From IMG/VR virus record IMGVR_UViG_3300028025_002258, positions 1-32,209 of that record: 32,209 nucleotides of DNA. One strand, 5' to 3'. Under the pieces are notes generated by a model. It did not search any database. It worked only from the letters and a program-made list of their open reading frames with translations, and was not told where the DNA came from. Position 1 is the stretch's first letter. Every line of letters starts with the position of its first letter. This document shows, piece after piece, positions 14,995 through 31,719 of this stretch. The position numbers and the translations under genes are program-made. This DNA is from a virus.

Positions 14995-15010
14995 ATTACA
15001 CAAATATAAT

Positions 15011-15039: not shown

Positions 15040-15065
15040 AATCTTTTTTGGCATGCAAGAGACGA

Positions 15066-16108: not shown

Positions 16109-16115
16109 TTCTTTT

Positions 16116-16817
16116 TTATTTTAAGTTTTCTAACCAGTTAATATCATCAGGATTGCTGGCCATTAATATTTGATTTATTCTTTTAAAGTGATCACACTCC
16201 CAGACTCCACCTTTATATACAGCAGAGACAGGGTGAGATGCTACTAATACGTGATGAAACTTATCATCTATTAGATGGGCGAACTTTAAGGCGTCCTTTC
16301 CCCAAAAACAGAATATAAGTCCTGAAGTATTTTCATTAAGTGTTTTGAATACAGCTTCTGTAAACTGTCTCCAAGGCTCTAGGTGAGAACCTGACTTACC
16401 TTCTTCGATAGTTAAAGCAGCATTTAACATAAGAACTCCTTGCTTAGCCCACGATTCTATATTCATATCGGTAGGGAAGCTTAAGTCATCAGGGTAAATG
16501 TCTTCTTTGATACGGTTGTACATCATTCTTAAAGACGGAGTAATATAAGTCTTGTTTCTAGGAGAGAATGCTAATCCATGAGCAATAGGTTCCCCTACAT
16601 TTCTACCTGGGTATGGATCCATTCCTAAAATAACGACTCTTACTTTCTGAAAGGGTGTCAAATTAAAAGCCTTGAAGACTTCATCTTTGTGAGGAAAGAT
16701 AGTTTTATTCTTTCTCTCATTAGCGATGAAGCCTCCAAGGCTCATAAAATAGGGACTCTCTATTACGTCTTTTAAATGTAAATACCAATCATCTGGAATA
16801 TTCACTAATTTTTTCAT
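16116..16817 (-). CDS. ung: Uracil-DNA glycosylase, family 1
   Basis: A 233-residue enzyme that removes uracil from DNA. The water-activating motif is ILGMDPYPG (D67, Y69), where E. coli Ung has GQDPYH. AHGLAFS (79-85) and LMLNAALT (129-136) follow, and the DNA-intercalation loop is HPVSAV (195-200), where E. coli has HPSPLS. The catalytic Asp and His are kept, while Gln and His of the first motif are Met and Pro. It overlaps the 3' end of the DnaA-like gene by 29 bases. UDG genes are a regular part of crAss-like replication modules. Its presence argues against a uracil-containing genome. Confidence 0.9.
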   Translation of the reverse strand: MKKLVNIPDDWYLHLKDVIESPYFMSLGGFIANERKNKTIFPHKDEVFKAFNLTPFQKVRVVILGMDPYPGRNVGEPIAHGLAFSPRNKTYITPSLRMMYNRIKEDIYPDDLSFPTDMNIESWAKQGVLMLNAALTIEEGKSGSHLEPWRQFTEAVFKTLNENTSGLIFCFWGKDALKFAHLIDDKFHHVLVASHPVSAVYKGGVWECDHFKRINQILMASNPDDINWLENLK

Positions 16818-17421
16818 GTATTTCTTTTCTACGATTTCTTCTTCTGTTACTGTCTAAGGTTTCAACAATAACGTTAGATTTTACTTCTGTATTCATCATA
16901 CCAGGAAATTCTTCATCTACTGCATTAAGAATTTGATTATATTTTACTTTGTAACTAGTCAATAATTCATAGAAGTCTACGTGTTGTCTAATTGCATGAA
17001 TAATTGTAGAGTGATCTTTAACTAACAGATTACCTACTTTAACATAGGTATAATGAAACTGGATTAATAGGACAGCAGCAAATTGAAATCTAGCTTCTAC
17101 ATATTCTCTTTTTCTACATAGTTTTACAAACTCTTCTATATTTATTCTATTTACTTTGCAAACAATCCTTAATATAGTTTGTTCAAAGTCTGTAAATCTA
17201 GCTAAGTTTATTTTAACTTGTTGGGATTTTTCTGCTGTTATTTTTCTTTTTAATGCAGCCTCTGCTGGATCAACTTGGTTAATCCTCCTTTCGTAATACA
17301 CTTTGTTTTTTGCTTTAAGGTTTATTGTGTTCATTAAACTTTCCTGCATCAAAGGTTCTACCTTTAATTTTTTGAACACAATTTCTAAGGCTTCGTCTAC
17401 AATATCTTTAATTCTTGGCAT
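16789..17421 (-). CDS. DnaA domain IV-like DNA-binding protein
   Basis: A 210-residue basic protein. Residues 78-152 follow the C-terminal DNA-binding domain of DnaA: CRKREYVEARFQFAAVLL (102-119), YVKVGNLLVKDHSTIIHAIR (126-145). DHST is the signature that contacts the DnaA box. There is no AAA+ ATPase domain. The N-terminal 75 residues and the basic C-terminal tail (NRRRNRRKE) are unassigned. It could bind the phage origin, or host DnaA boxes as a competitor. The gene overlaps the primase end by 25 bases and the ung start by 29, tying it to replication. Confidence 0.75.
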   Translation of the reverse strand: MPRIKDIVDEALEIVFKKLKVEPLMQESLMNTINLKAKNKVYYERRINQVDPAEAALKRKITAEKSQQVKINLARFTDFEQTILRIVCKVNRINIEEFVKLCRKREYVEARFQFAAVLLIQFHYTYVKVGNLLVKDHSTIIHAIRQHVDFYELLTSYKVKYNQILNAVDEEFPGMMNTEVKSNVIVETLDSNRRRNRRKEIHEKISEYSR

Positions 17422-18386
17422 AATTTTATTAATTTGTCTTTTCCGTGTTCTTTATAAATGTCACTAATGTCCTTTCCTAGACTTGCATGATGATAAAGCA
17501 CAGGTATGTTATACATCTCTGATATCTTCTGTGCACCTTCTATACCTGCTCTATCTGCATCAAACCACACATATATATTATCAAATCTTGCTTTGAGTAA
17601 CTCATAGGCATTTTCCGATATAGGTGTAGTCTCGCTTCTAACAGCAACAGCGTTAACTCCAATAGAGTGTAAGGTCATAACATCCTTAGTACCTTTAGTA
17701 ACTATCAAGATAGTTCCCTTGTGTGGTAACTGGGTGTAACCTTCAAGCATACCTCCAAAGAAATTAGTCCTGAACTTTACCTTCTTCTCTGCATAAGGAC
17801 GATATAATTTAAATTTATCTTTTTCCTTATACCGATAGCAAGGATCGAATTCATTACTGAGATACCAGATGTTGTCTGCTATCCAAGCTTTGTCTACTTT
17901 CCTTACATCATAGAACTTGAGTATTTTTTCTGTTACTCCAAATTGAGCCCAGTACTCTAAGTCTTTCTGATTGAATTTTGTAACTGTTACTTTAATGCTT
18001 GCAGGTTTTACCTCTGCTGGTTTAGGACTTTTAAGTGAAGCTGTTTCTATTTCTAATCTAAGTCTATCTTCTAAACTAAAGTTTTTAAGTTGGAAATCTG
18101 ATTCTATTTTATAAAGAATGTCTGGATACTCATAGGCAGTACGCATTTGAGCTATGTCAATTGCGTTGTAGTGCACTTTCTCCGTAGCATAATCTATAAA
18201 GTAAAGATTACCTCCTTGACTCCACTTAAAGAAACAGGTAGCATGTTTATCAGATCTGAATGGATTCTTATATTTCTTTCTTAAGTCTACTTTCTCACCG
18301 AAGTAAAAAGACATTAGGTTTTCTTGCCCTAGTAAAGCGTATAAGGTCTTTACATTTGGTCTTATTTCGATGCTTGAGAGATCCAT
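17397..18386 (-). CDS. DNA primase with TOPRIM domain
   Basis: A 329-residue protein. The N-terminal region has KNPFRSDKHATCFF (40-53), like the zinc-binding domain of DnaG but without the CHC2 cysteine pairs. The TOPRIM domain (about 224-310) has LIVTKGTKDVMTL (227-239) and VWFDADRAG (273-281; D276, D278). The glutamate normally found at position 231 is lysine; I believe TKs-x-KD is usual in this phage subfamily, so the enzyme may still be active. It would make primers for the polymerase at the fork opened by the DnaB-like helicase. It is first in its segment, directly after a terminator hairpin. Confidence 0.8.
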   Translation of the reverse strand: MDLSSIEIRPNVKTLYALLGQENLMSFYFGEKVDLRKKYKNPFRSDKHATCFFKWSQGGNLYFIDYATEKVHYNAIDIAQMRTAYEYPDILYKIESDFQLKNFSLEDRLRLEIETASLKSPKPAEVKPASIKVTVTKFNQKDLEYWAQFGVTEKILKFYDVRKVDKAWIADNIWYLSNEFDPCYRYKEKDKFKLYRPYAEKKVKFRTNFFGGMLEGYTQLPHKGTILIVTKGTKDVMTLHSIGVNAVAVRSETTPISENAYELLKARFDNIYVWFDADRAGIEGAQKISEMYNIPVLYHHASLGKDISDIYKEHGKDKLIKLCQELKIL

Positions 18387-18415
18387 ATGTGTTGAGTTTA
18401 ATCCTTCTTCAATAA

Positions 18416-18443
18416 AAAAGGGGCTACAAATGTAACCCCTTTT
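18416..18443 (-). terminator. Intrinsic terminator after the SSB gene
   Basis: AAAAGGGG (18416-18423) pairs with CCCCTTTT (18436-18443). TACA/TGTA extends the stem past one mismatch around a tiny loop. On the - strand the stem is followed by TTTTTTATT. It lies 30 bases after the SSB stop and 29 bases before the primase ATG. Confidence 0.85.
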
Positions 18444-18472
18444 CTAAAAAAGAGAATAGATTACTTTAAATT

Positions 18473-19312
18473 TTAAAAGATATCATTAACATCTGTGCTA
18501 ACAGGAGCTGTAGCTACTTCACTGCTATCCCAACTCATCATAGAGTCTTTGAAAGGGGTTTCAGTTTCGCTTAATTCAGGAGCATCGTTCTCAGTGTATT
18601 CTTTGAAAGTAAAACTTCCGTAGAAACTCTTGAAACCATACTCACCAGTAATTTGCTTAGTTACATATTCAGTAACTTTGCCTTGTACATTAAGGAATAC
18701 TTTAGTGCATACATCTTGGTACTTACCATCCTTAATTCCTAGAAGAACTTTAACACCCATGTTGGCTTTGTTAAAGTGTGCAAAGAAGTCTACCAACTCA
18801 TTGCCTTTACCTTTTGCAATAGAAGACCAGTTGTCAAGAACAAATGGCTTTTCTTTTGGGGAGATGTTACCGTAAGCTTTAAGCAAAGAATAAACAGTTT
18901 CTTCTCCACCCTTAGCTTCACGTACACTCTTCATATCCAATCTACGAGAAGGATCTAAAGAAGATTGAGTTTCACTCAAAGAAGCAAGGTTCTCAGCCCA
19001 AGCAGTTTTAGTAAAGTTGTCAATGAATTGTTTTTTACCTGCTTGAGACATACGAGTATCATTGTTAACCCACAGAGAGAATTTACCTCTTAGGTCAGTT
19101 TTAAAATCAGGATGGTTAACATACCAAAAGTCAAGACGCATTCCGTTCTCACCTTCGTAAGTGGGTTCTTTAACTTTGTCCTCTTCTATTCCAAGAACCT
19201 TAGCAAGTTCTTTAGCTGAAGGGTTAACAGCTACGATTTGAATAGGAGCGAATCCTGTGTACATTTTCTTGCCTGCTGAAGGCTCTCTGGTTTCTAATTG
19301 ATCGAATTTCAT
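18473..19312 (-). CDS. Probable single-stranded DNA-binding protein
   Basis: A 279-residue protein. The middle (about 75-235) has beta-rich blocks consistent with an OB-type core (GKFSLWVNN, NMGVKVLLGIKDG, VCTKVFLNVQGKV). The C-terminal 45 residues are acidic, flexible and end in VNDIF, the acidic-plus-phenylalanine tail by which SSBs recruit partner proteins. It lies directly downstream of the Sak4-like ATPase, a standard pairing in phage replication modules. No residue-level family match is claimed. The leader is strongly A-rich (AACAAAATTAAATT). It ends its segment, followed by a terminator. Confidence 0.65.
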   Translation of the reverse strand: MKFDQLETREPSAGKKMYTGFAPIQIVAVNPSAKELAKVLGIEEDKVKEPTYEGENGMRLDFWYVNHPDFKTDLRGKFSLWVNNDTRMSQAGKKQFIDNFTKTAWAENLASLSETQSSLDPSRRLDMKSVREAKGGEETVYSLLKAYGNISPKEKPFVLDNWSSIAKGKGNELVDFFAHFNKANMGVKVLLGIKDGKYQDVCTKVFLNVQGKVTEYVTKQITGEYGFKSFYGSFTFKEYTENDAPELSETETPFKDSMMSWDSSEVATAPVSTDVNDIF

Positions 19313-19335
19313 AATTTAATTTTGTTTTTTGTTTT

Positions 19336-20043
19336 TTATTTTTTGTTTGCTTTTTCTACTACTGGTACTTCTTCTGTATAATAACTATCTATTGTATTAC
19401 ATACTACTTGTAAGTCATTAGGGATTAGGGTATCATCAAACATTCCCATAGGGCTTTTAGCAGGATAATTCCTAAAACGATTGGTTACAAAGTGGTAAGT
19501 TGCTCTCTCATCTTTATCTTCACCTACGTGAGTATAAAGACAAATAGTAAACAATCCTTCTAATACAATTTGATTGTCCAATGCTTTACCGATTGTCTTA
19601 ATCTTCTGACCTACGATATGTCCATCATCTTCTATGTTCTCTGAGTGAGTGATGTAGAATACTTTTAAGTCATTACGAAGTTTACGAGCAGTAGTAAGCA
19701 TATTAGTTACATCTTTTGCAAGAGTAACAAACTTACCAAAACCGATTTCATTGGCTTTCTTCATCATAAGGAAAGACATTGAATAGATAGCATCATCCAT
19801 GATGATGTTTTTGATGTGTGGAGCTTTCTCACTAATCTGTTGTAACAATGCGGTGATTTGATTGATGTCATCTACCTCCATGTAATTTTTAGATTCGAGA
19901 TTGTAAAGCTTCTCAGCTCCTTTGAAAGGCAATTCTTTCCTTGCTACATTAATAATAAATGTTTCTTTTGGATCTAAAGTCCTTACAGATGTGGATTTAC
20001 CAGTACCTGAGGGACCTACGATAGCGATTAATTTACTTGACAT
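19336..20043 (-). CDS. Sak4-like RecA-fold ATPase (AAA_24 type)
   Basis: A 235-residue P-loop protein. Walker A is GPSGTGKST (10-18), Walker B is NIIMDDAI (79-86), and FYITHSEN (129-136) holds the sensor-like position. Length, the single RecA core and the neighbouring SSB match the Sak4 group of phage single-strand annealing ATPases. It would promote annealing at stalled forks or during end recombination, acting with the exonuclease at 9384-10352. A packaging role is unlikely, since no terminase features are present. The leader (AAATAAACTAACCAAT) is A-rich. Confidence 0.8.
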   Translation of the reverse strand: MSSKLIAIVGPSGTGKSTSVRTLDPKETFIINVARKELPFKGAEKLYNLESKNYMEVDDINQITALLQQISEKAPHIKNIIMDDAIYSMSFLMMKKANEIGFGKFVTLAKDVTNMLTTARKLRNDLKVFYITHSENIEDDGHIVGQKIKTIGKALDNQIVLEGLFTICLYTHVGEDKDERATYHFVTNRFRNYPAKSPMGMFDDTLIPNDLQVVCNTIDSYYTEEVPVVEKANKK

Positions 20044-20053
20044 ATTGGTTAGT

Positions 20054-20380
20054 TTATTTTGTTTCTTTTATTTGATCTAAATCTTCTGTTAATAATTTCC
20101 ATCCGTAATTAGAAGCAAAGAATCTTGCTCCTCCTTCACAACGCTTCTTATCCTTAGAAGGGAAGCTTAAGATTGCTTTTCTTACTTTGGTGTCAGTGTA
20201 AAGTAAGTTAGCTAACCAAGTTATGAACTCTTCTTCTTGTGCCATAGTCCAAGTATGTTCCCAAAACCAATCTTCTTTCTTAAAATCTACGTCATCATAG
20301 TTGACTCCAATCATGTCACACATATGACTCATTATTAATTTTAATTCTGGGCCAAAGCCATTTTTGTCTGTTTCATTCAT
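20054..20380 (-). CDS. Phage W-rich helical protein, paralogue of the gene at 28419-28706
   Basis: A 108-residue protein. The core VDFKKEDWFWEHTWTMAQEEEFITW, followed by a basic helix and FFASNYGWKL, has the same order as the 95-residue protein at 28419 (DIKDRKDNWYTEWTMTVEQ, then EWRAW and MNLMWGLKY). The shared pattern is D-x-W-(Y/F)-x2-(Y/E)-x-W-T-M-x2-(E/Q)-E-x2-(F/W)...N-x-x-G-(W/L)-K. Such proteins occur widely in phages, but no activity is known to me. It lies between the helicase and Sak4 genes with gaps of 3 and 10 bases. Confidence 0.7.
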   Translation of the reverse strand: MNETDKNGFGPELKLIMSHMCDMIGVNYDDVDFKKEDWFWEHTWTMAQEEEFITWLANLLYTDTKVRKAILSFPSKDKKRCEGGARFFASNYGWKLLTEDLDQIKETK

Positions 20381-20383
20381 TGT

Positions 20384-21490
20384 TTACATTTTTAAATACT
20401 TTTCATAATGATTGCCTACAGGATTGTTCATCTCTTCAGGCTTTGGTAACTCATCAAACTTACCATTAGCTCCATTAAAGTAAAGCCCTACGCTTGAATT
20501 CTCTAAGCCATAGTAACGATCTTTTAGAAATTTAAGTGAGCGGTATTTGTTACCAAGTAAGGATACATCATAACCATTATGAACTGCTATGTTATATCTT
20601 GCAGGACTAAATAAACCTAGAACTACTTCATAGTCTTGATGCACACCTTTGTTAATGTGGAGTTCTTCCATAGAAGGTTCTAGTTTCTCTTCCATTAACT
20701 GTCCTTTATAAGTGTAGGTTTGCTTTTCTGATGCAGGAGTTTGTTGATGGACAATAATGTTAGCCATCTTGTATCGCTTAGAGAATACGTCCAGTACATA
20801 ATCCTTAATCATAAAGTCAAAAGTCTGATAAGAACTTAACTTCATCTTAGTATCAGGAGCTATCTCATTAGATAAAAGACTAATGTGATCTAATACAAAG
20901 AATACCCAATGATCCTCTGATCTGTATCTATATCCTGTAGTAATCTTTTTACCTTCTTCTAGTTCTTTGTAGATATGTTCTCCTACTTGTGGATTATCGA
21001 AGTACGCTTTTACGTACTTAGCTATACCTGTAGGATTTCTTACATAGTCTATAACTTCTACAATGTTCTGTAGATTGTTAATAAAGGTTTCTGCAGCTTT
21101 TATCTTTGTCATTAACTCAGAGCTTACTCTGAAGTTTCCAATAGACTTTAACTGCTGTACAGTAATAGTTAAGTTGTGATTTTGATGCAGGTAAATAGAG
21201 ATAAAAGATAACCAAAAGTCTGTGGCACTTTCTTCTAAAGCAAAGTAAAATATCTTAGGAGTGATTTCTGTATTTCTTGTTGCTTTGTAGATGTTTACGA
21301 TAGTCATGTATTTTGCAAACTTTGACTTACCTACACCTGAAGCAGCAGTAATACAAGTAATAGAACCTTTAGTAAAGCCTCCATAGTACTGAGCCAATCT
21401 TGCAAACGGAGGAGCAATAGAAGTTATTCCTCCTGCATCTTTGATTGCTTTATTCCTTTCGATTTGGGAAATTATGCTTTCAAAGTTCAT
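20384..21490 (-). CDS. DnaB-like replicative helicase (RecA core)
   Basis: A 368-residue protein without the N-terminal DnaB domain. Walker A is AASGVGKSKF (49-58), the catalytic glutamate segment is FALEES (83-88), Walker B is VFFVLDHISLL (196-206) and motif H4 is NIIVHQQ (244-250). This is the hexameric DnaB/T7-gp4 type C-terminal motor, placed beside primase and SSB genes. It would unwind the replication fork. The next upstream gene ends 2 bases before its start. The D-H-I-S-L-L Walker B is normal for the family. Loader function may lie in the unknown 184-residue protein encoded upstream. Confidence 0.9.
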   Translation of the reverse strand: MNFESIISQIERNKAIKDAGGITSIAPPFARLAQYYGGFTKGSITCITAASGVGKSKFAKYMTIVNIYKATRNTEITPKIFYFALEESATDFWLSFISIYLHQNHNLTITVQQLKSIGNFRVSSELMTKIKAAETFINNLQNIVEVIDYVRNPTGIAKYVKAYFDNPQVGEHIYKELEEGKKITTGYRYRSEDHWVFFVLDHISLLSNEIAPDTKMKLSSYQTFDFMIKDYVLDVFSKRYKMANIIVHQQTPASEKQTYTYKGQLMEEKLEPSMEELHINKGVHQDYEVVLGLFSPARYNIAVHNGYDVSLLGNKYRSLKFLKDRYYGLENSSVGLYFNGANGKFDELPKPEEMNNPVGNHYEKYLKM

Positions 21491-21492
21491 CT

Positions 21493-22047
21493 TTACAATA
21501 TTTGATGACTATTATAAGCAGGTCCACTGCCATTCTTTAATTCTTCACACCATTTAGCTAGATCGCTTTGGTCTACTCCATCAATCTTTTTAAAGATAAA
21601 ATAACCACACTCTCTAACATATCTAATAGATCCCTGTTTCTTCAAGGTATCAATATAAAGGTCAGTGGCTTTTGCTATGTCTTCTAAAGAGTAATCGTAT
21701 TCACCTAAGAATTTAATTAACCTTTTAACTACGCTTACCTTATCTGTGGTTTTACCTGATACTCCTAGATTCTTAGAATTAAACTTAGAGATAAATTCTG
21801 TTAACCATGTTATTGGTATTTCAGGTTGCTCTACTGGTTTTTTAATGGTAATAGTAGAAGTAGCATCAGAATGTCTAGCAATTTTAAGTGCAGATATCAC
21901 TTGATCTACATCTAATTCTGCAAGTGCTTTAGGTGTCCAACTAAAAGTGGTTCCATTATTGAGAAGTTTTTCTTCGTAAATCCACTTGTCTATCATTTTC
22001 TCTTTTACTGCTAGTTCCCATAGGACTTCGTAGAATGTTTTCTTCAT
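21493..22047 (-). CDS. Unknown replication-module protein (possible helicase partner)
   Basis: A 184-residue, mostly helical protein. The C-terminal part (YIDTLKKQGSIRYVRECGYF, then DLAKWCEEL) looks like a small winged-helix or DnaD-type module, and the N-terminal part is helical with two basic patches. There is no ATPase motif. Its position 2 bases before the DnaB-like helicase is where loaders or initiators are often encoded; that role is inferred from position only. The start overlaps the upstream small gene by 92 bases. Confidence 0.7.
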   Translation of the reverse strand: MKKTFYEVLWELAVKEKMIDKWIYEEKLLNNGTTFSWTPKALAELDVDQVISALKIARHSDATSTITIKKPVEQPEIPITWLTEFISKFNSKNLGVSGKTTDKVSVVKRLIKFLGEYDYSLEDIAKATDLYIDTLKKQGSIRYVRECGYFIFKKIDGVDQSDLAKWCEELKNGSGPAYNSHQIL

Positions 22048-22225
22048 TGTCTGTTGTGGTTAAGGTTACGTTTATGCCTTTGAATAATTTCTCTTTATTA
22101 AACTTAGGCGGGTCTACAAAGATAAGGGATTCTTCAACTTTTTCCAAGTCTTCTATCCACATTTTTTTCATAAAAAGATAGTCTGGTGTTGTTTCCAGAC
22201 TATCTCCATAGCATTCATTTTCCAT
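21956..22225 (-). CDS. Small hypothetical protein overlapping the next gene
   Basis: An 89-residue reading frame. Residues 1-60 look like ordinary protein (YLFMKKMWIEDLEKVEES). The last 30 residues, encoded inside the first 92 bases of the following gene, are polar and odd (SSKRENDRQVDLRRKTSQ). It is needed to explain the 232-base space between the helicase partner and the peptidase. The start has an A-rich leader (CAACTAAATTTT). The long overlap could also mean that the real protein was shortened by a sequence error. Function is unknown. Confidence 0.55.
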   Translation of the reverse strand: MENECYGDSLETTPDYLFMKKMWIEDLEKVEESLIFVDPPKFNKEKLFKGINVTLTTTDNEENILRSPMGTSSKRENDRQVDLRRKTSQ

Positions 22226-22266
22226 AAAATTTAGTTGATTCTAATCGCTTGATTGTAGATTTACGA

Positions 22267-22295
22267 TTAAGGAGTAGCCTAAGCTAACCCCTTAA
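22267..22295 (-). other. Stable hairpin spanning the peptidase stop codon
   Basis: On the - strand, TTAAGGGG pairs with CTCCTTAA (8 bp with one G-U), one T bulges, and TAGC pairs with GCTA around a TTAG loop. The stop codon lies inside it. No T-tract follows, so it is not an ordinary terminator; mRNA stabilisation or processing are possible roles. Confidence 0.5.
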
Positions 22296-23685
22296 TCTCT
22301 AAGAAATCCTTCTTACCTATCCACACTTGCTGAAAGTCATACTCATAAGACTCTAATACGTCTTTTGGTATGTTAAAAACACTCTCACAATCTGTACAAG
22401 CAGTCTCAAGTAATAGGTCATTGGTGATCTCTATATGGTGACCTCCACACACAGGACAGTTGCCTTCCATAATAGACTCATCTATCATTTCAGGGTCAAT
22501 GTCTTTTATCTTAAAGTCTACTCCATCTGGAGAATAGTACTGAGAGAGGTGAGTAAGTTCTTTCCTATGTTCAGGTAAAGACATCTCAGGATAAACACTC
22601 ATAACCCACTCATTGTACATTTCATAGGCTGCAAGGTCATCCATGTCATCTTCAACAGCTTTAGCGTCTTTAGTAGAACTAGCTGTTTCACTTTCCCAAT
22701 AGAAAGGATCGTCTTTTCTTTGACCTAAACGAACATAGTCTCCCTTGACTGCATCAAAGTAAAAATCTTCTTGGTCATCCCACATACTTACCTGCCTAGC
22801 TCCTAGACCTAAATGAGATTCTTTAGAATGAACCTTAGTAGGAGCAGAGAAGAGAGGAGGGAATTCGAGTGGGATGTTTCTTTCAGCCAACATTGTAAGC
22901 ATCTCATAAGCAAAGCTAAAAGCGTTGATCATTAGATTAACACTAGCTACCTCAGTATCTCCATGCTCGTTAAAGTAACCACAGGATAAGTTGTGAGAAG
23001 AAACTTTAAGTCCCCTTCTACGAAGTCCACCTACGTCAGTAGCTGTACCTGAAGCAGGCTTGTATCCATATTTGTCCATCAAAGGTTCAATAAGGGTAAG
23101 ATGTTCAGGATTCCACACTTGATATCCGTTGGTATACTGGATGAAGTCTGTTGTATAAGATCTGCGATCTAGCTGAGTAACTACTAGAGAATTGTCAAAG
23201 AAAGACATATCACAACAGTTAGTACCTACTAGACCTCTTTCCTCACCATAAGGCAAGAAAACCTTACATACAGGCATCATCTTAAGCATCTGAATAGCAA
23301 AACAAACACCTACAGAGTCATCGAGACCTAAGCCACATTGTTCTCCTCTGAAGTCATCAAAGCCGAAAATCCACTTATCTGTCTTAAAGATACGCATGCC
23401 TACATGATAGTCTTGAGCTGTGTCATAGTGAGCTACTACAGTAGGATAATACTCGGCTTCTCCTTTTGTGCAATAGATATTACCGCCTTTCTCTTCTACT
23501 GTTACTCCGTCTATCTGAGAAATAAGACTTATAAGCCAATCTTTTTTAAGTTTCTCCATCTCTGGCTGGTAGGTGGGGCTTTGTTGATACATAATATCAA
23601 ACAGTAGATCAAAGTCTACAGGGAAATTTCCTTTTAATGTATCATCTAGTTCACCTAGTTCTTTGCTTTTATATTTATAAGTCAT
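22279..23685 (-). CDS. M20/M28-like zinc metallopeptidase with C-terminal zinc ribbon
   Basis: A 468-residue protein. Five metal and catalytic blocks of co-catalytic metallopeptidases appear in order: VVAHYDTAQ (H86, D88), GLGLDDSVGV (D122, D123), YGEERGLVG (E148, E149), TQLDRRS (D173) and NEHGDTEVAS (H241). These match the HxD, D, EE, D, H set of M20/M28/M42 aminopeptidases and tripeptidases. The tail carries CPVCGG (C410, C413) and CTDC (C430, C433), a zinc ribbon not usual in these enzymes. It has no signal peptide, so it acts in the cytoplasm. The gene is followed closely by the replication genes. Such peptidases are rare in phages. The substrate is unknown. Confidence 0.85.
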   Translation of the reverse strand: MTYKYKSKELGELDDTLKGNFPVDFDLLFDIMYQQSPTYQPEMEKLKKDWLISLISQIDGVTVEEKGGNIYCTKGEAEYYPTVVAHYDTAQDYHVGMRIFKTDKWIFGFDDFRGEQCGLGLDDSVGVCFAIQMLKMMPVCKVFLPYGEERGLVGTNCCDMSFFDNSLVVTQLDRRSYTTDFIQYTNGYQVWNPEHLTLIEPLMDKYGYKPASGTATDVGGLRRRGLKVSSHNLSCGYFNEHGDTEVASVNLMINAFSFAYEMLTMLAERNIPLEFPPLFSAPTKVHSKESHLGLGARQVSMWDDQEDFYFDAVKGDYVRLGQRKDDPFYWESETASSTKDAKAVEDDMDDLAAYEMYNEWVMSVYPEMSLPEHRKELTHLSQYYSPDGVDFKIKDIDPEMIDESIMEGNCPVCGGHHIEITNDLLLETACTDCESVFNIPKDVLESYEYDFQQVWIGKKDFLEIKGLA

Positions 23686-23697
23686 TTTTTTGTTTTT

Positions 23698-25737
23698 TTA
23701 AATTAAGGGTTCTTCATTATTGTCTTCTACCATCGCTTCTGTTTCTCTTTCTTCTGTTTCAGGTTGATTTTCGTTTACAAAAGAAAAATTCGAGTAATTA
23801 GTAGTACTAGTAATAGTATTTGTATTTAGTAGATAGGTTCCAATACCTAAATTTCCAATACCAACATTACTACTACTATGGATGTTAATAGTAGAATTAG
23901 TAGAATTAGTAGTAAGAGTACCTGATAGAGAGTTATTTGCCATAATCTGAGACAATCTTTCTTTCTTTCTTCTTTCTACTTCTTCGCTATCATAGAGATC
24001 TTCTGGCTTATTCTCATCATTTGGGTGATAATATACATTGCCATCAGTTAGATAGTCATGTTCATCTAAGATAAAATAACCAAAGTCATTCTCAAATTGC
24101 CTAAGTTCAGGATCATCTTGGTGTGCCCATGTATTATCAAGTAGTCTAATACCTTCATCTGTTAAGATAGAATCATCTTGATAAGTGCTAACTGTGTCAT
24201 CTTGAGTGGTATGATACTCTCCAGTTGACTCTGAATAAATAGCACAGTCCTCACATACTCTTAGATCACGATATTGACCTCTCTCAACGTAAATAGTAGT
24301 ATCATAATGTACAGTACTATCACAGCAACTACAGGTATAGTCACTATCTTCATCTTCATCTACATTATAACTGTTATAGTGATAAGCATCACCTCCAGTG
24401 TTTCTAAGCTCAAAACGAGGCCCTTCTACAAGATTATTGGTAAGTACTTTTTTAGTTACGTCATAATTATATAAAGTGTCTAGATAAGGGAACTTAGTTA
24501 TTCCTTCTAAATCCATCTCCATAGAGTAGACTCCTCCTACACAGAAAAGAGTAGAGTATCCTGCAGCTTCTAATGTGTTCTTGAGTAAGTTTTGTGTTTC
24601 GTTTGTTGTATAGTAAATACGGTCAAACATAAACTTACCATCAATGTTCCACATAATAGAACGAGCAGCAATCTTACTACCCCTTTTAAGCACAGCCATC
24701 TTTACTTTGTCTGGAAACTTAGTGTAGATATCAAAATACTGTTGACACTGTCTGTGACGCATACAAGAGCTTCCTAAACTACCTGTTTGAGCTACATAGT
24801 TCTCATAGTAATAAGCGTCTTTGATAGCATCTCCTTCAATAATTGAGAAGTCATAAAGAGGATTAGAAACAGTAATCAGAGTAGCATAGGCTTCTGCAAA
24901 TGCAGTAATGTCTCTATCGCTGTATGTATCTCCAAATAACCTACGAACTATCTTACCTACTGAGGTATGATATCTTTGTTTGTAGTTCCATACTTCTTTG
25001 ACTTTAGTTTCAGTTTTGTTAAAACTTACGCCTAACATATTATATCCTCCATCAGCTTGGTATCCGTCTTGATCTATATGAAAAGATGCACTAGATACTA
25101 ACCTAGAGTTTCTAATCCTTAGGGGTCTTGAGTCTTTCTCTAGAAAGGTATTTTTAAATCCAAAGTTAAAAATATGATCTTTTTGTGACCTTCGATTGTC
25201 TTCCCATAAGTAAGAAGTTACTGTAAACTCTCTGTTTTCAGTTACAAATCCTTTAATAGGAAAAATATCTCCTCCTAGGTGCCTAGCAGTTAAAACTAGT
25301 TTAACATCATAGTGCCCATGATCAGGCTCTGAACTTACATAATTCCTTCTGTAGTGAAATATAGCTTCCGTTCCAGGCTTAATCATATGCTGAATACCAA
25401 CTTGTCCATGTAAACGATTCTTACGATCTTCATCTAGATAAGAGATTTTAGTATAGTCAGCTTGAGATAAACCTAGATAGTTACAATACTTGTTTAGGGT
25501 AGGTACATGAGTTAAATCTATAATTTGCTGAGCAATTGCTTTTACTTGCTCAGGTACATTAGTACTAATAAGTTTAATTAATCTTTTCTTTAAGTCAGGG
25601 TGTAGAACAAACTTATCCTGCCTTACTCTCCTTCTAGGTATAGAAGCAGCAGATACATGAATAGTTTGCATTTCTTTGTTTGCAGTCTCCATAAACTCGG
25701 AAGAGAATGGATCATCAATGATTTGTTGGTTTGGCAT
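23698..25737 (-). CDS. Large zinc-binding phage protein of unknown function
   Basis: A 679-residue protein. The centre has SLGSSCMRHRQCQQYFDIY and KIAARSIMWNIDGKFMFDRIYY, a pattern (SCM...ARalLW...DRiY) I associate with large uncharacterised proteins in diverse phages. CSCCDS and VCEDC (about residues 460-490) make a zinc site, followed by short H/D-rich repeats (YHTTQDDTVSTYQDDS). Residues 590-650 are low-complexity in N, S and T, and the end is acidic. There is no membrane segment or known catalytic motif. It opens a segment after a terminator, with a leader of CTAAA repeats (AACTAAACTAAACTAAAAAT). It lies upstream of the peptidase gene by 12 bases. Confidence 0.75.
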   Translation of the reverse strand: MPNQQIIDDPFSSEFMETANKEMQTIHVSAASIPRRRVRQDKFVLHPDLKKRLIKLISTNVPEQVKAIAQQIIDLTHVPTLNKYCNYLGLSQADYTKISYLDEDRKNRLHGQVGIQHMIKPGTEAIFHYRRNYVSSEPDHGHYDVKLVLTARHLGGDIFPIKGFVTENREFTVTSYLWEDNRRSQKDHIFNFGFKNTFLEKDSRPLRIRNSRLVSSASFHIDQDGYQADGGYNMLGVSFNKTETKVKEVWNYKQRYHTSVGKIVRRLFGDTYSDRDITAFAEAYATLITVSNPLYDFSIIEGDAIKDAYYYENYVAQTGSLGSSCMRHRQCQQYFDIYTKFPDKVKMAVLKRGSKIAARSIMWNIDGKFMFDRIYYTTNETQNLLKNTLEAAGYSTLFCVGGVYSMEMDLEGITKFPYLDTLYNYDVTKKVLTNNLVEGPRFELRNTGGDAYHYNSYNVDEDEDSDYTCSCCDSTVHYDTTIYVERGQYRDLRVCEDCAIYSESTGEYHTTQDDTVSTYQDDSILTDEGIRLLDNTWAHQDDPELRQFENDFGYFILDEHDYLTDGNVYYHPNDENKPEDLYDSEEVERRKKERLSQIMANNSLSGTLTTNSTNSTINIHSSSNVGIGNLGIGTYLLNTNTITSTTNYSNFSFVNENQPETEERETEAMVEDNNEEPLI

Positions 25738-25765
25738 ATTTTTAGTTTAGTTTAGTTTTTAAATG

Positions 25766-25790
25766 AAAAAAGCACCCCTAGAGGTGCTTT
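25766..25790 (-). terminator. Intrinsic terminator-like hairpin
   Basis: On the - strand AAAGCACC and GGTGCTTT form an 8-bp stem around a 6-base loop, followed by TTT and then CATTT. It lies 25 bases after the stop of the small gene at 25815 and 32 bases before the ATG of the 679-residue gene, at a border between segments. Confidence 0.8.
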
Positions 25791-25814
25791 ATGTTTAAAT
25801 TAAGTTAGTTTAGT

Positions 25815-26012
25815 TTAAATGTCTTCTGGTTTCTTTTCGGTGTCGTGTGTGTAACAATGAACAAGTAATAAATTCTTTTCTCCTTGGGCTTTTTTGTGTT
25901 CTTTGTCTCGTTCTTTTTCTGAATAAAACTTGTAATCCTCGTTCTTGTTCATTGTCTTAACAATTAGATGAAATTCAATGACTGTACCCTCTTTGCTTAG
26001 TTTGTACTCCAT
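25815..26012 (-). CDS. Small basic hypothetical protein
   Basis: A 65-residue, lysine- and glutamate-rich protein (YKFYSEKERDKEHKKAQGEK) with no motif. Its start overlaps the end of a 54-residue membrane protein gene by 16 bases, and a terminator follows its stop. The first half could form beta strands (GTVIEFHLIVKTM), as in some small phage proteins made to process host factors, but no function can be stated. Confidence 0.55.
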   Translation of the reverse strand: MEYKLSKEGTVIEFHLIVKTMNKNEDYKFYSEKERDKEHKKAQGEKNLLLVHCYTHDTEKKPEDI

Positions 26013-26161
26013 TCTGCAAAGATACTGCAGAGATTAGCTAAGAATGCTACTACTATGGATAAAACAGAGACAAAAAGAATAGAGTAAGTGAAGAACTCAT
26101 TAGTAGTAAAACAGTTAGTATTTTGCAATTTAAATACAATTCTTTTTAGTCTAGCTTTCAT
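25997..26161 (-). CDS. Small single-span membrane protein
   Basis: A 54-residue frame with ATG at 26161 and TAA at 25997. The N-terminus is basic (MKARLKRIVFKLQ), then a membrane span at about residues 26-46 (SILFVSVLSIVVAFLA), then a short tail. The positive-inside rule puts the N-terminus in the cytoplasm. It fills the otherwise empty 138 bases between its neighbours, overlapping the upstream gene by 11 bases and the downstream one by 16, the same packing as elsewhere in the block. No homologue is known to me. Inner-membrane localisation and any host-directed function are inferred. Confidence 0.6.
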   Translation of the reverse strand: MKARLKRIVFKLQNTNCFTTNEFFTYSILFVSVLSIVVAFLANLCSIFAEWSTN

Positions 26162-26372
26162 CGTTTGTGTGTTTCTTCACTTGTTTCCAGTATAACACAG
26201 CATTGTTAGTAGACGCATTTTGCCCTTTAAAATGCTTAGACATATCTTCATACTCTATTATAATCTTATCTATCATAAGATTAGCAATCTTTCTGTACAT
26301 GTATCTATCTACTTGAAATCCTAAACTTTTGATTTCAATCTCTAGAGCAAGGGCTTGAGTCTCTGGTGACAT
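26151..26372 (-). CDS. Small helical hypothetical protein
   Basis: A 73-residue protein, mainly helical (LALEIEIKSLGFQVD, KIANLMIDKIIIEYEDMSK), ending in a polar tail with TAG stop. No motif or membrane segment is seen. The opening resembles many small phage proteins of unknown role. It follows the conserved 133-residue gene by 9 bases. Use of TAG as a real stop here is one sign that the phage does not read TAG as glutamine. Confidence 0.6.
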   Translation of the reverse strand: MSPETQALALEIEIKSLGFQVDRYMYRKIANLMIDKIIIEYEDMSKHFKGQNASTNNAVLYWKQVKKHTNDES

Positions 26373-26381
26373 AGTACAAAT

Positions 26382-26783
26382 TTAAAGCTTTTCTGCTTTT
26401 TCGTCAAATCTATATTTTAACTCATCTTGAAAGATTCCTTTATAGAAGTCTGAAATTTGATGTTGAGTCTTTAATATAGCTTCTATGTGGTCAGAGTCTA
26501 AGTCTTTAATAGGTTTGTAGACTAAGGGTTGTCTTCCGTCTATACCTCTAGTACCCCAGTGTACAGCAGATCTTCTAGTTACGTGTGTACCATCGTCATA
26601 GACGCTTAGCTCTTCGTAAGTTCCTACATGTCTTCTAAGATAGTCTGTTCCTCCATCTACCATAAGAACTTCTTTAGTAATAGTATCCTTATAGGTGTTA
26701 TAATCATGACGATTATAAGAAGTAAGGATAGTACCATCTGGTGTTTTAATCCTGTTTAAAAGGATCTTGTTTTCCGTAGTCAT
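26382..26783 (-). CDS. Conserved phage protein, unknown function
   Basis: A 133-residue protein with the run LLNRIKTPDGTILTSYNRHDY, MVDGGTDYLRRHV, YEELSVYDDGTHVTRRSAVHWGTRG and LDSDHIEAILKTQ. I recognise this pattern (RTPDGT.L.S..RHDY...MVDGG.DYLRR...W G..G.DG..PL...HI.AIL) from many phages, where no function is established. Conserved H, W and D residues suggest a binding or enzymatic site. The start lies inside the GNAT gene end (38-base overlap). Confidence 0.7.
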   Translation of the reverse strand: MTTENKILLNRIKTPDGTILTSYNRHDYNTYKDTITKEVLMVDGGTDYLRRHVGTYEELSVYDDGTHVTRRSAVHWGTRGIDGRQPLVYKPIKDLDSDHIEAILKTQHQISDFYKGIFQDELKYRFDEKAEKL

Positions 26784-27228
26784 AAGTTAGTATATAAGCG
26801 GGTTTAATTGTTGTGGTGATGTTTCCATCAACGTTAACTGTTTCATGTTTGCATTCAAAAGTTTTAAACTTGTAACCTGCTTTAATAAAGAAGTTAAGCG
26901 AAGTTAAGTTATTCGCTTTAACTCTTGTAATTACAGTTACAAAATCTTTTGTCTCTTCATAGATAGATTTAATAACATAATCTATGAGAAAACTTGCATA
27001 ACCTTGTCTTTGATACTTCTCTGCTACATGAATAAAGTTAATACGATAGCATTCTTTTTTCTTTCTCATTAACATTACAGCTACTATATCTAGTCCGTCT
27101 TGGATAGCGTGTACTGTTAAATTAGGGTCGTTAAACGACTTTTCCGTAAATTGTACTTCAAAATGATCTGAAATAAACTGAAAATATTTAGGATCTTTTC
27201 TGTTGTAATAAGAAATTTGAGTTAGCAT
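26746..27228 (-). CDS. GNAT-family N-acetyltransferase
   Basis: About 160 residues from the ATG at 27228 (MLTQISYY); the longer start at 27285 would overlap the upstream gene by 98 bases. Motif A is INFIHVAEKYQRQGYASFLI (64-82), with the acetyl-CoA pyrophosphate loop QRQGYA, and motif B is ANNLTSLNFFIKAGYKF. It would transfer an acetyl group from acetyl-CoA to an amine; whether the target is a host protein, tRNA or small molecule is unknown. Phage GNATs are often host-modifying or anti-defence, which is only a guess here. It overlaps its neighbours on both sides. Confidence 0.8.
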   Translation of the reverse strand: MLTQISYYNRKDPKYFQFISDHFEVQFTEKSFNDPNLTVHAIQDGLDIVAVMLMRKKKECYRINFIHVAEKYQRQGYASFLIDYVIKSIYEETKDFVTVITRVKANNLTSLNFFIKAGYKFKTFECKHETVNVDGNITTTIKPAYILTYDYGKQDPFKQD

Positions 27229-27424
27229 AGATAGTTTTAGTTTCGTGCTTATAGATAGCTCTTTTATAAAGCTCTCTGAAAGCAAATCTATTAATACCTA
27301 AGTGTCTTCCTGCTCTTTCATAGCTGTATCCTAAATCATCTCTTAAGATAAGGGCAGCATATTGTCTAGGAGTAAAACCTTTTAGGTCTAGTTTGAGAGG
27401 GGTGCTTTGATCGTTGGATGACAT
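27188..27424 (-). CDS. Small helix-turn-helix protein
   Basis: A 78-residue protein. Residues 18-55, TPRQYAALILRDDLGYSYE then AGRHLGINRFAFRELYKRA, fit a helix-turn-helix of the sigma region 4 / terminase-like type: a tetrahelical start, a turn at G-I-N, and a recognition helix. It could regulate phage transcription or bind DNA in another way. It starts inside the end of thyA (37-base overlap) and overlaps the GNAT gene. It has no second domain. Confidence 0.6.
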   Translation of the reverse strand: MSSNDQSTPLKLDLKGFTPRQYAALILRDDLGYSYERAGRHLGINRFAFRELYKRAIYKHETKTIYANSNFLLQQKRS

Positions 27425-28422
27425 ACGTAGTTTTCTAAGATAATGTCGTTAACAGAACTGCAAAAGATTCCATCTCTAACCTGTACAGTAGGTAACGGAT
27501 AAGGTGTTCTTGTAATCTGTTCTTGGGCTTGTTCAATATGATTGAGATAAAGATGAGTGTCGCCTAGGTTACCTATTAGTTGGTCAGGTATCATATTAAC
27601 CTCATCAGCAATCATAGTTAATAATAAAGCATAAGAAGCGATATTAAAGGGAAGACCTAAGAATGCATCTACTGAACGCTGATTCCACATTAAAGAGATT
27701 GCTCTGGTCGGTATGTTAGCTTGAGTTAAAGCTGTATCAATAGTATTTTCTATGGCATCTCCTAAGTTTACTTTCATGAAGGGTACGTCTATTTTATTTT
27801 CAAACTTAAAGTTATAATTTTCTACTCTTTCTACTCTACTCAATTCTCTTGTATAAACTTGAAATCCATAATGACAAGGAGGAAGTACCATATCTTCAAG
27901 AGCATCTACATTCCAAGCACTAACCATCAGTCTTCTAGAGTCTGGATTGTGTTTAAGATTGTGGATTAGACTTTTAATCTGGTCAATTGAACCTCCTGCT
28001 AAGTCTGTTGAAGGCCATTTTCTCCACTGAGCACCATAAATAGGACCTAACTCACCGTATCTAGCAGCAAACTCAGGATTAGTCTTGATTTGTTCTGCAA
28101 ACTCTTCTATAGTGTAAGCATGATTATCGTCTGGTCTTGCTTCACGGTAGGATTTGTAAGCGTCTCCTGTCCAAATATTACATCCGTTATCTAAGAGATA
28201 CTTAATGTTTGTGTCACCTTTTAAAAACCACAGCAATTCAGTTACTATTGTCTTCCAGGGCATCTTCTTAGTAGTTAAGAGAGGAAATCCATCACTCATT
28301 CGATGTCTAATAGTGTAGCCAAAGATTGACTTAGTACCTGTTCCTGTTCTATCAGACTTCTCTACTCCGTAATCTAAGATAGACTGAAGTAAGACTTGGT
28401 ATTGTGTGTCTATGCTGTTCAT
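27388..28422 (-). CDS. thyA: Thymidylate synthase (ThyA) with an internal insertion
   Basis: A 344-residue enzyme making dTMP from dUMP with methylene-tetrahydrofolate. Visible are KSDRTGTGTKSIFG, PLLTTKKMPWK, ELLWFLKGDTN, RRLMVSAWN, the catalytic cysteine in PPCHYGFQ (C183), NQRSVDAFLGLPFNIASYALL (N260) and GDTHLYLNH. E. coli ThyA has 264 residues. Here about 45 extra residues (about 192-240) lie between the catalytic cysteine strand and the RSxD phosphate-binding motif. The enzyme complements the phage dCMP deaminase. It overlaps the HTH gene at its 3' end and the next upstream gene by 4 bases. Confidence 0.95.
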   Translation of the reverse strand: MNSIDTQYQVLLQSILDYGVEKSDRTGTGTKSIFGYTIRHRMSDGFPLLTTKKMPWKTIVTELLWFLKGDTNIKYLLDNGCNIWTGDAYKSYREARPDDNHAYTIEEFAEQIKTNPEFAARYGELGPIYGAQWRKWPSTDLAGGSIDQIKSLIHNLKHNPDSRRLMVSAWNVDALEDMVLPPCHYGFQVYTRELSRVERVENYNFKFENKIDVPFMKVNLGDAIENTIDTALTQANIPTRAISLMWNQRSVDAFLGLPFNIASYALLLTMIADEVNMIPDQLIGNLGDTHLYLNHIEQAQEQITRTPYPLPTVQVRDGIFCSSVNDIILENYVCHPTIKAPLSN

Positions 28423-28706
28423 GGGTTAAGATTTGAGTATTTAAGTCCCCACATTAGATTCATCCATGCCATCTCTGTCTCAGCAAACTTCTTGTTTACT
28501 TTAAAAAGTTTCATTAGATAATTTACTCCCCAAGCTCTCCATTCATCACTTTGTTCAACAGTCATAGTCCACTCTGTGTACCAGTTGTCTTTACGATCTT
28601 TGATGTCATCAAATGTAACATCATGACCTGCAATGATAAACATCTGATTGATGATATCTATTACTGCTTTTTCACGTTTTTGTTCTCTTGTTAATCGTTT
28701 TGCCAT
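28419..28706 (-). CDS. Phage W-rich helical protein, paralogue of the gene at 20054-20380
   Basis: A 95-residue protein. FDDIKDRKDNWYTEWTMTVEQ and EWRAWGVNYLMKLFKVNK, then MNLMWGLKY, share order and spacing with the 108-residue protein at 20054. The N-terminus is basic (AKRLTREQKREK). The family is widespread in phages without a known role. It overlaps thyA by 4 bases and the next gene by 16. Two diverged copies in one genome suggest duplication or separate acquisition, possibly with different partners. Confidence 0.7.
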   Translation of the reverse strand: MAKRLTREQKREKAVIDIINQMFIIAGHDVTFDDIKDRKDNWYTEWTMTVEQSDEWRAWGVNYLMKLFKVNKKFAETEMAWMNLMWGLKYSNLNP

Positions 28707-28996
28707 AATTCGTATAAACTGTTTGTTGTTGCAAACTTAATATAGTTTTCTTTCTGTTCCAAAATCTCTGTAACAGTAGTTGTCATCCAGGTATAAGATA
28801 TTCTTTGAGGATCTAGGATAAGCGACCTACCTACTGCAGGTTCATTATGTAATTTTTTAAAGGTGCCGTCTTCGTTCCATTCAATCCACCCAGCTTTGTG
28901 ACCTACATTAGATAAGCCATCTCTTTCTCTGACTAACTTGTATCTAAAAATCTCTTCTAGATTTAAGTTTATTTTAACTTGTTCTATTTTACTCAT
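28691..28996 (-). CDS. Conserved small phage protein, unknown function
   Basis: A 101-residue protein. The second half, GRSLILDPQRISYTWMTTTV then TEILEQKENYIKFATTNSLYEL, resembles a common phage family (LLLDP...SYTW.T..VTEI...F.T.NS.Y.L) with no known role. It is a beta-rich small domain and has a single Trp-rich stretch. The start has no Shine-Dalgarno sequence (leader ACAGATACAAA). It overlaps the upstream and downstream genes by 8 and 16 bases. Confidence 0.65.
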   Translation of the reverse strand: MSKIEQVKINLNLEEIFRYKLVRERDGLSNVGHKAGWIEWNEDGTFKKLHNEPAVGRSLILDPQRISYTWMTTTVTEILEQKENYIKFATTNSLYELWQND

Positions 28997-29243
28997 TTTG
29001 TATCTGTATTAGTTCTTGTTTTATCTCTTGGTACATCTCTATTACCTTTCTGTTTTGCCAACTATGATGCTCTAATGCTTCTATAATCTTGTCTACAGAA
29101 ATTAGAGAGCAAGTAATCGCTTCATTGTACCTTTTCTCACAGCTCAGTAGTCCTTCTTTAAGGGACCCATTGTTAGGCAACTGATAATAAAAGTCATTGA
29201 TCAGCTGCCTAGCTGGTGTTGGGTTAATAATATCTTCTATCAT
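28989..29243 (-). CDS. Small hypothetical protein
   Basis: An 84-residue, mainly helical protein (PARQLINDFYYQLPNNGSL, CEKRYNEAITCSLISVDKI). Its ATG at 29243 overlaps the TGA of the preceding gene (ATGA) and is preceded by GGAGGAGTTGAGCA, a strong Shine-Dalgarno sequence encoded by the C-terminal YGG codons of that gene. The last half has coiled-coil character (MYQEIKQELIQIQNE). No function is recognised. Confidence 0.6.
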   Translation of the reverse strand: MIEDIINPTPARQLINDFYYQLPNNGSLKEGLLSCEKRYNEAITCSLISVDKIIEALEHHSWQNRKVIEMYQEIKQELIQIQNE

Positions 29244-29503
29244 TGCTCAACTCCTCCGTATGTTTGTTTGTAAAACTGTCCAAATGTCATTACATCTGAT
29301 TCATTCATCATTACGTATAATTCGTATTCATAATACAACTTAATGGCTTGTTCCTTCTCCATTACTTTGGCTTGTTCAAGCAGTTGGATTTCCAACATAA
29401 CAAATTGTTTTCCTGTTATTTTACCAGTTATCAAATCGCTTGTTAATCTGCCGATTTCTTTGGAGTAATAGTCCACTGCCGTCTGTTGTTTATTGTTTGT
29501 CAT
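29240..29503 (-). CDS. MTNNKQQTA-family small protein, copy A
   Basis: About 87 residues from the ATG at 29503, chosen because it gives the same MTNNKQQTA start as copies B and C; the frame continues upstream to 29557 (MVKQWYC) through the preceding gene's coding region. The rest is helical (QLLEQAKVMEKEQAIKLYYEY) and ends FGQFYKQTYGGVEQ. The family has a conserved start and end with a divergent middle. It is common, by my recall, in crAss-like phages, with no assigned function. Confidence 0.65.
   Translation of the reverse strand: MTNNKQQTAVDYYSKEIGRLTSDLITGKITGKQFVMLEIQLLEQAKVMEKEQAIKLYYEYELYVMMNESDVMTFGQFYKQTYGGVEQ
29241..29260. repeat. Shared gene-end repeat, copy 1
   Basis: CATTGCTCAACTCCTCCGTA, differing from 31102-31121 at one base (A/C). 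It encodes the end of one gene and the start of the next on the - strand and carries the GGAGG site. Confidence 0.7.
29475..29503. repeat. Gene-start repeat, copy 1 of 3
   Basis: 29 bases covering the MTNNKQQTA start codons on the - strand; the copies at 29722-29750 and 31626-31654 each differ from it at one base. Confidence 0.75.
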
Positions 29504-29750
29504 CTCCGTAGGTTTGTTCGTAAAATTCTTCAAATGACAATACCACTGCTTGACCACCGCATTGGTTTTTGAATGTTTCTTCTAAATAATTTTCATAATC
29601 ATTATAAAGTTTTATTGTCATTTGCTTTTCCATTGCTTTGGATAAATTAATTATTTGATTAATTCCATAACCATCTCCTTTTATTTCTAATTTTTCTAAC
29701 AGTAGTTTTGCCAATAACTCTACTGCCGTTTGTTGTTTATTGTTTGTCAT
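29490..29750 (-). CDS. MTNNKQQTA-family small protein, copy B
   Basis: An 86-residue protein: MTNNKQQTAVELLAKLLLE, a helical middle (LSKAMEKQMTIKLYNDYENY) and the end FEEFYEQTYGDDKQ. It overlaps the start of copy A by 14 bases, where TACGGAGATGAC is read in two frames. Start and end match copies A and C, while the middle shares only scattered residues with them. The close tandem with copy A indicates duplication. No enzyme motif is seen. Confidence 0.7.
   Translation of the reverse strand: MTNNKQQTAVELLAKLLLEKLEIKGDGYGINQIINLSKAMEKQMTIKLYNDYENYLEETFKNQCGGQAVVLSFEEFYEQTYGDDKQ
29722..29750. repeat. Gene-start repeat, copy 2 of 3
   Basis: 29 bases covering the MTNNKQQTA start on the - strand; one base differs from the copy at 29475-29503. 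Confidence 0.75.
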
Positions 29751-30166: not shown

Positions 30167-30175
30167 GGTTGTTTA

Positions 30176-31654: not shown

Positions 31655-31668
31655 AAGTTAAAGTTTAC

Positions 31669-31706: not shown

Positions 31707-31719
31707 AATTTAAATCTTT

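Follow-up and report, generated by a model that had tools for sequence, protein, structure and literature searches.

The window (the whole stretch of DNA analysed here, 32,209 nucleotides, positions 1 to 32,209 of the virus record IMGVR_UViG_3300028025_002258) carries a gene for a predicted zinc exopeptidase and, directly upstream of it, a gene for a large protein referred to here as the SCM partner. The coordinates of both genes and of their features are collected in Table 1. When the peptidase interval is read on the plus strand many stops are met. A preliminary description of this DNA, made from the sequence alone, had placed the peptidase among replication genes and next to a zinc-binding giant; replication genes do surround it, and the neighboring 679-aa protein bears CxxC pairs. 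A separate, ordinary acetyltransferase is encoded in the window at 26746-27285.

Table 1. Features of the peptidase gene, of the adjoining SCM gene and of the introns found in relatives (window positions unless a locus is given).
Feature	Position	Strand	Remarks
Peptidase ORF, 468 aa, ATG start	22279..23685	-	predicted clan MH (M28/M20/M42-like) zinc exopeptidase; PHROG 4191, fold, profile
Peptidase catalytic domain, residues 20-271	22873..23628	-	VIA Z 27.1; dN/dS 0.02-0.12
H86-x-D88, metal ligand and catalytic Asp motif	23422..23430	-	63/63 cores
D122, bridging metal ligand	23320..23322	-	63/63 cores
E148-E149, catalytic base and ligand	23239..23244	-	63/63 cores
D173, metal ligand	23167..23169	-	63/63 cores
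H241, metal ligand	22963..22965	-	61/63 cores, 2 gaps
Variable linker, residues 278-351, probably disordered	22633..22854	-	pLDDT <50; dN/dS 0.26-0.80 (residues 276-350)
Zinc ribbon C410/C413/C430/C433	22387..22458	-	invariant, 30 distinct full-length sequences
Equivalent of intron site A, after G151	23232..23233	-	empty in window; occupied in L045, L050, L051
Equivalent of intron site B, between S234 and C235	22983..22984	-	empty in window; occupied in L048, L049
Introns in relatives, approximate	L045:5188-6287, L050:6706-7826, L051:5060-6159, L048:10545-11730, L049:10715-11900		RF00028
SCM partner, 679 aa	23698..25737	-	directly upstream of peptidase, 12 nt gap
Conserved SCM core, residues 246-440	24418..25002	-	GNAT-like in model from about residue 292
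Invariant S324-C325-M326	24760..24768	-	32 sequences and 8 divergent ones
S/T/N-rich low-complexity SCM tail	23698..23937	-	ends -LI in most window-clade members

The ligand order of clan MH (HxD, D, EE, D/E, H) is present in the peptidase within the blocks VAHYDTAQ (H86, D88), GLDDSVG (D122), YGEERGLVG (E148, E149), QLDRRS (D173) and YFNEHGDTE (H241). All ligands, as well as the four ribbon cysteines, are 100% conserved among 30 distinct full-length peptidases (47 before dereplication, window included), the cysteines lying at exactly the positions given in the preliminary description. In a wider set of 63 distinct catalytic cores, drawn from all fetched loci and every lineage, H86, D88, D122, E148, E149, D173, R174, D217 and N232 occur in every core, while H241 and E245 occur in 61, the two gaps belonging to L048 and L049, which are intron-cut exon-1 fragments ending before H241. 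The search for mutated ligands in homologues that had been suggested thus found none, and the original assignment to an M20/M28-like metallopeptidase with all five metal/catalytic blocks is borne out by these invariant residues and by a fold match with a Z score of 27. Judged from sequence, the conservation of the metal site is far beyond chance. Ten pairwise comparisons gave dN/dS values of 0.02-0.12 for the catalytic half and of 0.26-0.80 for the linker; together with the invariance of the ligands, the low values of the catalytic half do not give the picture of a dead enzyme. The ORF looks like a single-domain clan MH exopeptidase that has a co-catalytic zinc site and is competent for catalysis.

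The window protein matches the family PHROG 4191 ("peptidase") with an E value of 2.4e-26 over residues 26-256 and no peptidase model of Pfam at E values up to 10. Phage homologues rise above the Pfam cut-offs for M28, M20 or M42; that of PF04389 (M28) is exceeded by the PPWS2 and Jenst homologues and not by the window protein, and the same model is matched by 11 of the 18 members of A2 at E values up to 0.1. The family profile recovers PepT by sequence (E 7.3e-10), and its best matches are PepT, PepD-like and TET aminopeptidases (E <0.01). An AlphaFold2 model built on 27 sequences (mean pLDDT 72.1; mostly 75-98 in the catalytic domain and below 50 in the linker, residues 278-351) was compared with known structures. 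Foldseek returned a best E value of 3.1e-10 and 152 PDB chains at E values up to 1e-3, PepT, PepD and TET being among those matched, and VIA superposed the model on M20, M42 and M28 catalytic domains with a Z score of up to 27.1 and an rmsd of 2.3 over 237 residues. The alpha/beta zinc-exopeptidase fold is therefore present in the model, and the comparison with PepT and M42 enzymes proposed at the outset did not give the refuting result, a fold lacking the metal site.

M20 peptidases have a lid/dimerisation domain inserted into the catalytic domain and M42 (TET) aminopeptidases carry a PDZ-like one in the stretch that separates HxD from the bridging Asp. Neither insert could be accommodated by the ligand spacing of the window peptidase, with 36 residues from H86 to D122 and 68 between D173 and H241. 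Membership of M42 proper was rejected on this ground, and that of M20 proper because the lid is absent and residues 20-271 of the model correspond to no more than the catalytic portion of M20 chains, which are 373-490 residues long. The M20 enzymes PepT and Xaa-His dipeptidase PepD resemble the window protein in the catalytic domain (Z 25-27, rmsd 2.3-2.5) and in ligand order and differ from it in the lid, for which its 68 residues between D173 and H241 do not suffice. M28 aminopeptidases (Vibrio/Aeromonas AAP) share with it both the single-domain architecture and the ligand spacing; several phage relatives lie near or above the Pfam M28 cut-off, whereas the window protein matches no Pfam peptidase model, and, unlike AAP, its N-terminal sequence has no evident secretion signal. 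The enzyme is thus placed in clan MH as a compact exopeptidase that belongs neither to M20 nor to M42 proper and whose architecture is closest to that of M28. Other members of PHROG 4191 (KP34 gp11, phi38:1 gp38, P23-45 gp56 and Jenst gp024) have the same catalytic domain and ligands, to which the window clade adds a long variable linker and a conserved C-terminal region with the CxxC-CxxC ribbon; only some of the other members have a ribbon.

Two expectations of the preliminary description did not hold. Such peptidases had been thought rare in phages; they belong to a PHROG family named for them, and tblastn over 50,697 phage records found relatives in 33 records with the window protein as query, in 402 with the Jenst homologue and in 384 with the KP34 homologue. 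Among the records found, which are redundant, Klebsiella predominates; the relatives occur in phages of Klebsiella, Pectobacterium, Vibrio, Lactococcus, Thermus, Bacillus, Cellulophaga and Enterococcus and in huge phages. The ribbon had likewise been considered unusual for these enzymes; it is constant in the window clade, and a similar C-terminal CxxC-CxxC arrangement is found in Callevirus, in Enterococcus phage VRE9_2 and in one homologue from the huge phage record LR756504. Another peptidase copy of LR756504 has DnaJ-type CxxCxGxG repeats in place of the ribbon, and such repeats also occur on SCM proteins. Two huge-phage peptidases (L131:4285-6885 and L132:4744-6903) have C-termini made up of long repeat arrays; the repeated domain, approximately "NVxxFFxL ... 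SFxELWxxIKDKVxFKK", matches no Pfam model at its cut-off. Two scans of genome contigs found no relative, and a DNA-level search of window positions 15000-32209 against phages gave no match.

Group I introns (RF00028, 75-97 bits, above the gathering score) interrupt the peptidase gene in L045, L048, L049, L050 and L051, that is, in five of the six interrupted or odd loci searched; the sixth, L052, has no RF00028 match. The odd gene of L052 lacks 136 nt within a stretch that is identical in all other respects, likely through an assembly fault. The site A intron, 1,100 nt long in L050, lies at the G151/L152 codons right after E148-E149, and the site B intron, 1,192 nt long in L048, lies seven codons before H241. 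Neither of these two lengths is divisible by three and a stop is reached immediately, so that splicing is needed for an active enzyme. Each of the four inserts that were read (L045, L048, L050 and L051) contains an ORF judged by eye to be LAGLIDADG-endonuclease-like. Group I introns usually reside in conserved, needed genes. In comparisons with close relatives, synonymous divergence is smaller across the catalytic half (22861-23685) than across the part encoding the linker and C-terminus (22279-22860), L003 showing 0.09 in the catalytic half against 0.90 in the linker and 0.33 in the C-terminus; it is as if gene conversion, perhaps through intron homing, had kept the catalytic half alike.

Of 52 window-clade loci, 49 have the SCM gene directly beside the peptidase gene and on the same strand; in the remaining three (L008, L010 and L052) the locus starts at or just before the peptidase, at a contig end. 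L022 has a shortened SCM frame, which 515 nt separate from the peptidase. The two genes also adjoin one another, in reversed order, in Callevirus and in the huge-phage loci L106 and L110-L112. The SCM core is invariant in 32 sequences at S324-C325-M326, R359, W363, D372-R373, Y375 and P417-Y418-x-D420. The -LI end of the low-complexity tail is possibly a docking or degradation signal.

In KP34, VP93 and PPWS2 a large protein with the same SCM residues in the same order is encoded directly upstream of the peptidase. Attempts to unite KP34-type and window-type SCM proteins into one family by sequence failed (HMM and hhalign; E 0.047, Prob 1.1). Among predicted viral structures, Foldseek matched the window SCM model to the proteins of KpV48 (5.4e-9), Buco (1.0e-8), Nobby (3.1e-8) and DE17 (3.7e-8) and, more weakly, that of Brevibacillus phage SecTim467 (2.9e-3); Jenst, a relative of SecTim467, has a 466-aa gene with an SC motif on the other strand, 1.7 kb from its peptidase. 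The SCM residue pattern matched 107 of 4,937 ORFs and none of 35,750 shuffles, and the three matched ORFs outside the HMM family are exactly the genes adjoining the PPWS2, KP34 and VP93 peptidases; because the pattern was written after sight of these sequences and is circular, only the structural search is counted as independent evidence for the KP34-type proteins. In Enterococcus phage VRE9_2 (L101:2630-5956) the peptidase lies between two genes annotated as a single PHROG (18912), the first of which has a W-SSC motif and is a possible diverged SCM relative. When a profile of the N-terminal module of SCM was used, the top two matches from outside the family were huge-phage peptidases with an N-terminal extension (L136 and L143; E 0.019 and 0.33), which is suggestive of fusions between the peptidase and an SCM module; an earlier profile, in which the window clade predominated, did not find them.

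Counted by the first word of the organism name, in records that are redundant and linked by descent, SCM and peptidase genes were found in equal numbers of records from phages of Klebsiella (231/231), Pectobacterium (51/51), Vibrio (42/42), Escherichia (10/10), Cellulophaga (7/7) and Shigella (4/4) and from uncultured huge phages (5/5). For Thermus (10/10), where the lists were compared accession by accession, the accessions are the same, and the genes are about 30 kb apart yet kept together. The SCM profile matched 6 of 11 records, leaving KP34, FADO, phiQ1, VRE9_2 and Jenst unmatched; in FADO, phiQ1 and VRE9_2 the peptidase is present and no SCM gene was found by profile search and other evidence. 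Four huge phages have 4, 5, 8 and 6 peptidase places and 7, 9, 14 and 20 SCM places, respectively, fragments being included among some of the SCM places and one of the peptidase places. Among 22 huge-phage peptidase copies confirmed with the peptidase profile, SCM is directly adjacent in four and 7 kb away in one more. The huge phage LR756503 (L140:2122-10041) contains a cluster in the order SCM-PEP-SCM-SCM-SCM-PEP, the last peptidase being on the other strand. As far as sequences can show it, the metal site is intact, the peptidase is under purifying selection, and the two genes adjoin in multiple lineages, occur nearly one-to-one, have multiplied jointly and encode proteins with the same kinds of accessory zinc modules.

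The SCM partner was modelled over 600 residues (pTM 0.36). The top rows of a Foldseek search of the PDB are nearly all GNAT-fold proteins (FemX, MprF, ATE1 and RimI-like enzymes; best E 0.013, probability 0.97), the GNAT-fold aminoacyl transferases FemX, MprF and ATE1 heading the list, mostly at probabilities of 0.8-0.99. Against ordinary GNATs, VIA gave Z scores of up to 8.7 over 92 residues, compared with the 7-8 that are usual for models without a clear match. The likeness to GNAT aminoacyl transferases is limited by E values of only 0.01-0.1 and by differences in sequence: none of the 32 SCM members matched a Pfam acetyltransferase model, the SCM profile matched no PDB sequence, and the invariant set SCM / R / DR-Y / PYxD is the family's own. 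The CoA P-loop motif of GNATs is Q/RxxGxG/A; no such loop was seen in the window protein, where the strand DRIY is followed by YTTNETQNLL with no glycine loop. On balance the model weakly favors a GNAT-like core, which we take as probable. A tRNA scan of 48 loci gave matches in L108 and L109 (two tRNA-Glu and a tmRNA each) and in L106 (one tRNA-Cys), and Rfam agrees on the calls in L108 and L109. In these two Callevirus loci (L108:6336-6695 and L109:6336-6695) the tmRNA (tag AQIEANMEAVNAILNLEVAVGV) and the two tRNA-Glu lie just upstream of the pair, and RtcB lies downstream. A general tRNA link to the pair was rejected, as the two tRNA-Glu and tmRNA are near it in Callevirus only.

Gene order bears on the time of action. 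In KP34, VP93 and PPWS2 the pair lies before the primase. In the Thermus phage P23-45 the peptidase is gp56 and the SCM gene stands at the start of the gene numbering; genes 1-77 are reported as the early/middle region bound by the gp64 polymerase (PMC10770324), and both Thermus genes fall within this region transcribed by gp64.

The reading preferred here is that peptidase and SCM partner form a conserved two-gene phage module, to which we assign a probability of about one half, a joint figure that also covers the competence of the exopeptidase and the proposed chemistry. The two proteins would act as one unit on polypeptides: proteins or peptides may receive a small aminoacyl or acyl group on their amino groups from the SCM protein, the peptidase may trim terminal or conjugated residues, and the zinc ribbons and CxxCxGxG repeats may hold the polypeptide substrate. 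We infer from this a kind of "writer-eraser" chemistry which, from the gene context, would operate intracellularly, during the early or middle phase, and not in the virion.

Other roles can be weighed against a shared module. The preliminary description had suggested amino-acid supply, cleavage of a peptide signal or the processing of a host or defence protein, and it knew the zinc-binding giant, here the conserved partner, as a neighbor only. The peptidase might be a general intracellular enzyme supplying amino acids during replication, with SCM as an unrelated neighbor, which would suit its closest solved relatives, the tripeptidase PepT and the dipeptidase PepD, as well as the phages FADO, phiQ1 and VRE9_2, with a peptidase and no SCM gene found. 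Such a supply role appears quite unlikely in view of the co-occurrence with SCM in eight groups, even at a distance of 30 kb, of zinc modules of a polypeptide-binding type and of up to eight peptidase copies per huge phage; as a main role it is discarded on account of the partner and the numerous paralogues. A small-molecule role, in which the clan MH domain strips acyl groups from a metabolite or modified base precursor made by the partner, draws on the deacylases DapE, ArgE and LysK, present in the same structural list at Z 22-24; PepT and PepD rank higher (Z 25-27), the sequence profile agrees best with PepT, PepD-like and TET aminopeptidases (E <0.01), and the presence of zinc ribbons and CxxCxGxG modules hints that the substrates are macromolecules, so that a deacylase is considered quite improbable.

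A role in host takeover or counter-defence would have SCM mark a host or defence protein which the peptidase then trims, leading to its inactivation or degradation. The early/middle position before the primase is in line with this, as is the precedent of phiKMV Rac, a GNAT which is reported to acetylate the alpha subunit of RNA polymerase and so to lead to alpha cleavage (PMC7824862); the variable accessory domains and the copy number would also fit many targets. The exopeptidase fold is, however, not that of an endoprotease, the gene neighborhoods hold no defence link, and dN/dS values of 0.02-0.12 in the catalytic half are unlike an arms race, making a takeover function unlikely. For the two-gene module an extended form may also be considered, speculative and rather improbable, in which a so far unrecognised protein-conjugation system is common to phages from the size of 43-kb podoviruses up to that of 735-kb huge phages: a GNAT-like SCM protein would use aminoacyl-tRNA instead of CoA, a cognate exopeptidase would trim or remove the amino acids, and in huge phages the writer and eraser families would have radiated with swappable zinc modules for substrate binding.

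Some members of this family have been noted before. KP34 gp11 is tabulated among the genes compared across KP34-like phages, beside the hypothetical gp10 (PMC4411677), and for PhiM1-like phages six conserved early ORFs are reported, of which the peptidase alone has been assigned a function (PMC6115819). Among the literature matches listed, titles and abstract openings describe neither the pair nor introns in such a peptidase.

The peptidase itself belongs to a known phage family, and the interesting part is the two-gene module around it. Phage peptidases of this type have so far been listed as stray "putative peptidase" genes and are now tied to a specific, unnamed partner that is kept with them across phages of Klebsiella, Pectobacterium, Vibrio, Thermus and Cellulophaga and huge phages. 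Two uncharacterised genes thereby become one testable system, for which P23-45 and phi38:1 offer cultured models. If the SCM protein were a transferase of the tRNA-dependent or acyl-dependent kind, phages would possess a pathway of their own for tagging and untagging proteins.
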